Origin: Ignavibacteriales bacterium
GTDB lineage: Bacteria > Bacteroidota > Ignavibacteria > UBA10030
Assembly: GCA_026390595.1 (NCBI GenBank)
Contig: JAPLFQ010000025.1
Location: 124,001-188,000, forward strand
Length of the DNA: 64,000 bases
Direction: 5' to 3'
In this document: piece by piece, positions 44,661 to 62,620 of the stretch
How the letters are laid out: the number at the start of each line of letters is the position of its first letter
Numbering within the stretch: the first letter of the stretch is position 1
The notes under the pieces: model-generated
The model's database searches: none
The model's input: the letters and a program-made list of their open reading frames with translations, nothing else
Told to the model about the DNA's origin: nothing
Program-made: the position numbers and the translations under genes

Positions 44661-44794
44661 AAAAGCAAACCGCCAAGCACGCCAAGAACCGCAAAGCACA
44701 CAATGGAATGCAGAGATCTTGTCGTGGAATTCGTTTGAACCGTACTATCAACTCTTGGCGATCTTGGCGGCCTTTGCGGTTTATCTTTGCTTTT
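44661..44794. repeat. CTTTGCG-family inverted repeat, empty copy 1
   Basis: Left arm 44661-44699 (AAACCGCCAAGCACGCC, AAGAACCGCAAAG) and right arm 44752-44794 (CTCTTGGCGATCTTGGCGG, CCTTTGCGGTTT) are inverted copies of the same near-tandem word, with about 52 bases of unrelated sequence between. No gene is inside. Compare the gene-carrying version at 62056-62553. Confidence 0.75.
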
Positions 44795-51329: not shown

Positions 51330-51434
51330 AAAGAGAACCGCAAAGGGCGCCAAGAAACGCAAAGGAAATATCAGCGCTTTGCGGATAACAGCGGTTCACT
51401 CTTAGCGCTCTTCGCGGTCTTTGCGGTTATTTTC
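51330..51434. repeat. CTTTGCG-family inverted repeat, empty copy 2
   Basis: Left arm 51330-51365 (AGAACCGCAAAGGGCGCC, AAGAAACGCAAAGG), right arm 51397-51434 (CTCTTAGCGCTCTTCGCGG, TCTTTGCGGTTATTTT), about 31 bases between. It ends ten bases before the methyltransferase start and so occupies that gene's expected leader and ribosome-binding region. Confidence 0.75.
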
Positions 51435-55150: not shown

Positions 55151-55275
55151 TTCTTAACGCAGAGTCGCGGAGTCCGCACCAGCCCGCCATGCGGTCTGGC
55201 GGGGAGGATCGCAGAGGAAAAGAGTCATAAACTCCGCGTTGCTCGGCGATCTCTGCGTCTCTGCGATGAAAGCAT
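55151..55275. repeat. CTCTGCG-family inverted repeat with nested palindrome
   Basis: Left part AACGCAGAGTCGCGGAGTCC and, after an insertion, GGATCGCAGAGGAA; right part ACTCCGCGTTGCTCGG and GATCTCTGCGTCTCTGCG (to about 55275). The halves are inverted. The left half is interrupted at 55179-55204 by the CCAGCCCGCC...GGCGGGG palindrome, which is foreign to the word pattern. Confidence 0.7.
55179..55204. repeat. CCAGCCCGCC...GGCGGGG palindrome, copy B
   Basis: CCAGCCCGCC at 55179-55188, central GCGGT, GGCGGGG at 55198-55204. Shortest middle together with copy C. It interrupts the CTCTGCG-type repeat. Confidence 0.7.
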
Positions 55276-62055: not shown

Positions 62056-62096
62056 GAGAAGGCAAACCGCAAAGGGCGCGAAGAGCGCAAAGTGAA
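62056..62096. repeat. CTTTGCG-family repeat, left boundary of the GxxExxY unit
   Basis: GGCAAACCGCAAAGGGCGCG and AAGAGCGCAAAGTGAACG, in the AAACCGCAAAG orientation. It is inverted relative to the repeat that begins at 62519, so the two bracket the gene at 62126-62509 as terminal inverted repeats. Confidence 0.75.
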
Positions 62097-62125
62097 CGTT
62101 GACGCTGACATCACCCGAGGTAAGC

Positions 62126-62509
62126 GTGAGCGAAAACGAGGTTGGCAAAATCATTGTTGATCGTGCATTTCAAGTGCATCAAGAGTTGGGGCCCGGATTA
62201 CTCGAGTCCACTTATGAGGCTTGCCTCTGTCATGAATTGCGTGATGCGGGACTGCACATAGAGGTTCAGAAAGCCCTTCCGGTCATATATAAAGATGTGA
62301 AACTCGATTGCGGTTACCGGATCGACCTTCTTGTCGAAAACAAAGTAGTCATTGAGGTGAAGGCTGTGGAAGCTCTCAATGATGTCCATCTGGCCCAAAT
62401 CCTTACCTACTTGAAGCTGTCAGGCTGTAAACTTGGATATCTTATCAACTTCAACGTGAAACGGATCAAAGAAGGAATTAGACGGGTCGTCAACAATCTA
62501 GATGAGTAA
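62126..62509 (+). CDS. GxxExxY protein, PD-(D/E)XK nuclease superfamily
   Basis: 127 residues from the GTG at 62126, with CGAGG five bases upstream; a TTG at 62099 lies next to the repeat and is less likely. The family motif is GLLESTY at 24-30. The nuclease-type signature is Asp67 in YRIDLLVENK and Glu77-x-Lys79 in VVIEVKAVE, the D...ExK pattern of the PD-(D/E)XK fold (Pfam PDDEXK_3). No characterised function is known to me. It is unrelated to its polysaccharide neighbours and is bracketed by inverted CTTTGCG repeats, which suggests a mobile or self-spreading unit. Confidence 0.9.
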   Translation: MSENEVGKIIVDRAFQVHQELGPGLLESTYEACLCHELRDAGLHIEVQKALPVIYKDVKLDCGYRIDLLVENKVVIEVKAVEALNDVHLAQILTYLKLSGCKLGYLINFNVKRIKEGIRRVVNNLDE

Positions 62510-62518
62510 TATCTAAAA

Positions 62519-62620
62519 GTCCTTTGCGCCCCTTTGCGGCCTTGGCGGTTAGAAACAAACCGCAAAGTGTGCAGAGAGCGCCAAGACATTTGAAGTGCAC
62601 ATCTTGCGCCTTTGCGTGAT
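62519..62620. repeat. CTTTGCG-family inverted repeat, right boundary of the GxxExxY unit
   Basis: CCTTTGCGCCCCTTTGCGG and CCTTGGCGGTT (to 62550) are inverted relative to the left boundary. They are followed directly by AAACCGCAAAGTGTGCAGAG, AGCGCCAAGA and finally TTGCGCCTTTGCGTGAT, which again invert. So the right side is itself an inverted repeat of the empty type. It ends nine bases before the next gene. Confidence 0.75.

Follow-up and report, generated by a model that had tools for sequence, protein, structure and literature searches.

A GxxExxY nuclease-fold gene enclosed by inverted word tracts: a candidate selfish unit with gene-less hairpin derivatives

The GxxExxY gene of the window (the whole 64-kb stretch of DNA that was analysed) and the inverted tracts of short words on either side of it probably constitute one unit that is selfish, or was once selfish and is now maintained (a "GxxExxY word-hairpin element"), and the gene-less hairpins would be its derivatives; we assign this reading a probability of about 0.6. 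At the level of sequence, the comparisons described below show a co-inherited unit, an empty site, a deletion derivative, a second insertion, one flip, joint change of the two arms and a repeat number that depends on the gene. From these we infer that the GxxExxY protein would cut DNA, recognize the words and copy them in trans. A wider formulation is tentative and in our estimate falls a little short of even odds: a class of selfish elements crossing phyla, in which a 127-aa Cas4-like nuclease coevolves with a locus-specific heptamer word and both arms are rewritten in concert, and in which the four-helix-bundle (Avd-like) proteins represent a second independent lineage.

The gene and its arms in the window

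An earlier note on this DNA had described a PD-(D/E)XK gene of the GxxExxY type enclosed by inverted CGCAAAG-type repeats, and both the gene and the enclosing arms were confirmed (Table 1). The gene lies in a polysaccharide cluster, in a gap with a glycosyltransferase gene on either side, and its product matched TIGR04256 (E 3.8e-45, 153 bits) and PF13366 (E 4.5e-44, 150 bits), in both cases above the curated cut-off (35 and 22 bits, respectively). It is the only protein inside the unit, within which no recognized transposase was found, and a profile search of the encoded protein gave no match to Y1_Tnp.

The two arms are mirror-image tracts of CGCnAAG with a 9-10-nt period (three words at a period of about 9 nt in the left arm) and share a perfect 10-nt inverted pair, CCGCAAAGGG/CCCTTTGCGG. 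The bracket had originally been extended to 62620, and the inverted arms within it are real, but the unit stops at 62551 and is followed by a separate gene-less hairpin, whose terminal CTTTGCGTGA at 62610-62619 matches the end of an element that occupies the same gap in congeners. Considered by themselves the arms in the window stand out only modestly, their ungapped score of 23 being reached by 1/1500 random positions, and the case therefore depends on other loci; counted as a single word, CGCAAAG shows no excess in the 64-kb window (12 seen versus 11 expected).

Table 1. Positions of the gene, its arms and the gene-less hairpins in the window, and of a gene-less family elsewhere in the source genome.
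Feature	Position	Strand	Description
GxxExxY gene	62126..62509	+	TIGR04256 / PF13366 PDDEXK_3; 127 aa; GTG start 62126, stop 62507-62509
Left arm	62063..62092	+	CAAACCGCAAAGGGCGCGAAGAGCGCAAAG; words CAAACCGCAAAG GGCGCGAAG AGCGCAAAG
Right arm	62522..62551	-	CTTTGCGCCCCTTTGCGGCCTTGGCGGTTA, inverted relative to left arm
Second hairpin, gene-less, abutting the gene unit	62556..62617	.	End CTTTGCGTGA at 62610-62619
Gene-less copy	44667..44782	.	Arms 44667-44694 and 44755-44782 (28 nt, 79% complementary)
Gene-less copy	51331..51433	.	Arms 51331-51355 and 51409-51433 (25 nt, 80% complementary)
Gene-less hairpin, different word class (CGCnGAG)	55158..55248	.	ACGCAGAGTCGCGGAG .. CTCCGCG..CTCTGC
Gene-less family with outer ends, source genome	C31:18507-18678, C10:135938-136109, C22, C8, C6, C21 (L374-L381)		

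The encoded protein

The conserved residues of the window protein are E27, D67, E77-x-K79, Q91 and Y95, of which D67 and Q91 are invariant in the alignment while E77, K79 and Y95 are conserved to at least 90%. The protein thus has the D..ExK plus QxxxY active-site residues as well as the predicted PD-(D/E)XK fold, and for the AF2 model (pLDDT 95.5) the nearest solved folds found by Foldseek were Cas4 SSO0001, lambda exonuclease and RecE, with E values of only 3e-3 to 2e-2. A sequence search of solved structures gave no match. The protein is predicted to be a compact Cas4/lambda-Exo-like PD-(D/E)XK nuclease. Gene pairs at orthologous or near sites had dN/dS values of 0.03-0.12, i.e. they are under purifying selection, which indicates that the protein is in use; strong selection of this kind at orthologous sites is compatible with a function in the cell as well.

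GxxExxY genes are present in 46/61 relatives with up to 12 copies per genome. They were absent from the phage records searched, and eight distant plasmid records carried them, too few for a presence/absence comparison. An algal virus has been reported to encode GxxExxY/PF13366 proteins, and Arctic algae to have an expanded set of them (PMC12085832, PMC9756366). In the open literature that was searched, the family is named in passing only and no description of the repeats was found; it is a widespread name-only family with no published function in that literature.

Words flanking GxxExxY genes at other loci

We surveyed 203 GxxExxY loci from 113 genomes for pairs of CRCnRRK-type words within 210 bp. 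Such pairs were found at 86% of the loci, as compared to 4.4% of 367 positions drawn at random from the contigs of these loci; for four-helix-bundle genes the figure was 5.7% of 35 loci. The concern that most GxxExxY genes might lack inverted flanking words thus did not materialize. Words in mirror arrangement were seen at 55-57% of the GxxExxY loci and at 0% of both the random positions and the four-helix-bundle loci. Among order-level relatives an inverted flank score of at least 28 was reached by 43/73 GxxExxY loci, by 0/41 control genes and by 5% of mismatched left/right pairs; the corresponding test in a multi-phylum set (Bacteroidota, Ignavibacteria, Chloroflexota, Planctomycetota, Marinimicrobia, Treponema and Methylobacter, as named in the records) gave 77% of 77 loci versus 17% of mismatched pairs. 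When 408 kb centred on GxxExxY loci were scanned for brackets holding an ORF of at least 100 aa, 9/9 contained GxxExxY.

The flanks follow a common plan, TTAACC-RC..word..word - gene - rc(word)..rc(word)-GGTTAA, in which each arm is a tract of 7-nt words with a 9-10-nt period, CRCnRRK at most loci, that usually ends in ..GGTTAA, and the mirror placement permits folding into a hairpin or cruciform. The earlier note had described one repeat, CTTTGCG; the flanks of the 203 loci and of the source genome show many locus-specific words, among them CGCAAAG, CACGAAG, CACGGAT (as at L006) and CTGAACnnTGATT (as at L135). The source genome has five GxxExxY genes with word repeats at all five, the words being CGCAAAG (window), CGCnGAG, CACGGAT, ACAGAT and GCGGAT; at the ACAGAT locus they are clear on the right side only. 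The gene copy at that locus (L007, G000:C5:141403) has an in-frame TAG and is probably decaying.

Covariation of word and protein

Across genera and at non-orthologous sites, similarity of the words climbed with protein identity (cosine 0.024 to 0.183, 18,710 pairs, locus pairs with similar wider flanks being excluded). When loci were permuted within genomes, which preserves host composition, rho was 0.000 +- 0.026 as compared to the observed 0.135, a value reached in 0/1000 permutations, and the outcome was the same with or without Flavobacterium. For example, GNGFQEVIYQRAL-type proteins from three genera (L097, L113 and L135) have CTGAACnnTGATT-like words in common. This covariation shows, as far as comparison of sequences goes, that a GxxExxY gene and its arms are co-inherited as a unit; recognition of the word by the protein does not follow from covariation alone.

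A second type of gene is found in a similar setting. Four-helix-bundle genes (TIGR02436, 23S-IVS/Avd-like; 11 in the source genome) also lie between inverted short-word tracts (L009-L019, L329-L357), and 40% of these loci had an inverted flank score of at least 28 as compared to 1% of mismatched pairs. Their words (TTAGC, AGTGAGA, GGGTATAGGG and AACTTCTAAC) are of another vocabulary than those of GxxExxY, and a nearest-neighbour call of the family from the words, with class sizes balanced, gave 0.775 versus 0.49. The four-helix-bundle proteins would be a second family with a GxxExxY-like way of life. That an unrelated family lives in word hairpins too, and that second insertions adjoin older ones, would suit a reading in which the hairpins are hot spots, or shared landing sites, that receive small genes of either family without being driven by them. 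The covariation described above and the difference in vocabulary within the same genome group (CRC words at 86% versus 5.7% of loci) both argue against such a passenger role, as does the lack of a word excess in genomes that have four-helix-bundle genes without GxxExxY (see below), and we consider it quite improbable.

Repeat number follows GxxExxY

In 61 genomes we counted the matches to the pattern CRCNAAGNNCRCNAAG, taking the reversed pattern as control. The mean count was 25.3 (control 4.2) in the 46 genomes with GxxExxY and 3.4 (control 3.1) in the 15 without it. Given the counts of four-helix-bundle and Y1_Tnp genes, the partial rank correlation between CRCNAAGNNCRCNAAG and GxxExxY was 0.51 (p = 2.5e-5, p-values being optimistic here since the genomes are related); on genus means the correlation of words with GxxExxY was 0.70, or 0.56 as a partial correlation given the four-helix bundle. 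The four-helix-bundle and Y1_Tnp counts had no residual effect on word number, and the 10 genomes with four-helix-bundle genes but without GxxExxY had no excess (4.1 versus control 3.9). In the source genome 3/66 CRCNAAGNNCRCNAAG matches are near GxxExxY genes, so the excess consists of gene-less copies. The idea that the words are a feature of the host genome was rejected given that single genomes have several words and that no excess occurs without the gene.

Y1_Tnp (RAYT-like) genes occur in 52/61 genomes, in some cases as close as 1-2 kb from GxxExxY, and could in principle be the agents that spread the words. Their partial correlation with word number given GxxExxY was however -0.01, and five genomes with at least three Y1_Tnp genes and without GxxExxY show no excess, making this agent very hard to credit. 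The neighbouring pairs, at distances of at most 1-2 kb, are at G041:C33:223092 and 217770, G007:C79:63250 and G046:C6:109378.

Gene-less hairpins

The gene-less copies that had been placed at 44661-44794 and 51330-51434 are real, with arms refined to the limits in Table 1, and a further gene-less hairpin with words of the CGCnGAG class had been overlooked. Single-strand folding of the two copies is better than that of shuffled sequences (z = -3.0 and z = -4.2, respectively), no match to Rfam RNA families was found up to E 1, and the copy at 44667-44782 is missing from the orthologous gap of a congener (G005). The idea that the words serve the gene only as operators or terminators was rejected, since dozens of copies have no gene.

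The source genome contains a family of about ten related copies without the gene, about 170 bp long, with CGCAAAG arms inside outer inverted ends (CTAGCAGGATGTTGAAA..TTTCAACAACCTGCTAG, present in most of the better-preserved copies), and one pair is 91% identical over 172 bp. The copies of this subfamily terminate in an outer inverted repeat of their own, CTAGCAGG..CCTGCTAG, and therefore another transposase may spread those particular copies. The relatedness of these copies and their shared ends would also be expected if gene-less copies in general were ordinary MITEs that a conventional transposase mobilizes by different termini, with the CGCAAAG arms carried along as cargo. This is very unlikely in our view: the outer ends were found neither near GxxExxY genes nor at the 51331 and 62063 copies, and the association of words with GxxExxY across genera and phyla would be left unexplained.

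Histories of single sites

In 10 genomes of other genera the genes that flank the window gap adjoin each other with no or almost no intergenic DNA. Thus, the gap does not always carry the repeats regardless of the gene, which had been named as a possible outcome when a comparison of orthologous gaps was proposed. The comparison yielded the empty sites that were sought but not precise junctions: identity at these sites is about 70%, so the junctions are not base-precise, and no target-site duplication was recognized at the empty sites in other genera and in G005 (flank identity 65-80%). G003 has a clean 480-bp unit in the gap (TCACGCAAAGG..gene..CTTTGCGTGA, last word CTCTGCGTGA), G015 has the same unit as a MITE-like derivative in which only the first 11 and the last 13 codons remain, and G001 has a deleted copy and then a second intact unit. 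Remnants were found in G002, G004 and G005.

At an orthologous gap in Flavobacterium the GxxExxY proteins form one clade (98/93) and those in plus orientation a single clade within the tree (89/84), which indicates one insertion followed by one flip and rules out free flipping of the gene. CGCAAAG is present on both arms in 6/6 plus species, and the minus species mostly have GAG words on both arms (exceptions are G190 and G115, the latter mixed), which suggests that the two arms of this insertion tend to change words together. In several species the gene is absent from the gap and left-type word tracts are kept, and these gaps are therefore not clean empty sites. At L263 (G163) an approximately sevenfold tandem amplification of the left arm, with a unit of roughly 78 bp, is located beside the inverted GxxExxY gene.

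Word tracts that remain in Flavobacterium without the gene would be expected if hairpins spread by slippage or by other transposases and GxxExxY were a cellular nuclease that trims or repairs them, its gene being sited among them. The strong purifying selection and the predicted Cas4/exonuclease-like fold are compatible with such a caretaker, and the genome-level correlation is expected from it as well. It would not explain, however, that nearly every copy is framed by mirror-image copies of a word specific to its locus, that one genome has several differently worded copies, or that a gene-bearing unit and its deletion derivative occur at orthologous sites, and we consider it unlikely.

Proposed mechanism and relation to known systems

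If gene and arms are one selfish unit, the nuclease would most likely act on arms that have folded or broken, and a repair process that takes the words as short homology might copy, flip or duplicate the unit. The same word-homology repair could homogenize its two arms, and gene-less hairpins with cognate words would be non-autonomous derivatives, related to the unit as REPINs are to RAYTs. The earlier note had drawn this parallel of autonomous and non-autonomous copies, and it holds in part: the unit recurs, gene-less copies outnumber the gene, a deletion derivative exists and repeat number follows GxxExxY, whereas the many words, the second family, the separate outer ends of one subfamily and the tracts without gene in Flavobacterium call for its modification.

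Like REPIN/REP sequences and their RAYTs (TnpA-REP) (e.g. PMC3116915, PMC8266576), the system consists of many short intergenic palindromes and one gene framed by inverted palindrome copies, with a repeat abundance tied to a gene that has apparently been maintained for long. The differences are that RAYT is a Y1 HUH enzyme whereas GxxExxY is a predicted Cas4/lambda-Exo-like PD-(D/E)XK nuclease, and that in the GxxExxY repeat a short word of variable sequence is arranged in tracts, with different words at different loci of one genome; inspection of the GxxExxY flanks revealed no recurrent GTAG or CGTC tag, a feature of REPs. The best reading is that the unit would resemble RAYT/REPIN in function while having a Cas4-like nuclease as its enzyme.

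Terminal inverted repeats and the coexistence of full and internally deleted copies (G015) are shared with MITEs and their parent insertion sequences, but the GxxExxY unit has no DDE transposase and no recognized target duplication, and its arms are word tracts that change in concert. With the 23S rRNA intervening sequences and other four-helix-bundle elements (TIGR02436, Avd-like) it has in common a small gene inside an inverted repeat and word hairpins in the same genomes, but the proteins are unrelated, the words are different and the GxxExxY element is not in rRNA. Cas4, lambda exonuclease and RecE (PD-(D/E)XK, QxxxY) resemble GxxExxY in predicted fold and active-site residues; GxxExxY differs in being only 127 aa long and in lying inside word hairpins without a CRISPR or phage recombination context.

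If GxxExxY drives the repeats, this would account for hairpins that are abundant between the genes of Bacteroidota, Chloroflexota, Planctomycetota and other groups, and would provide a directly testable pairing of protein and word. The system would also parallel RAYT/REPIN while relying on another enzyme, and a Cas4-like nuclease that stands alone would possibly have a selfish role.

Directly 5' of the start codon many GxxExxY genes have a G-run resembling GGGGGGAAT (L076, L083, L094, L096, L101, L106, L107, L119 and L122), which is perhaps a strong ribosome-binding site carried within the unit.
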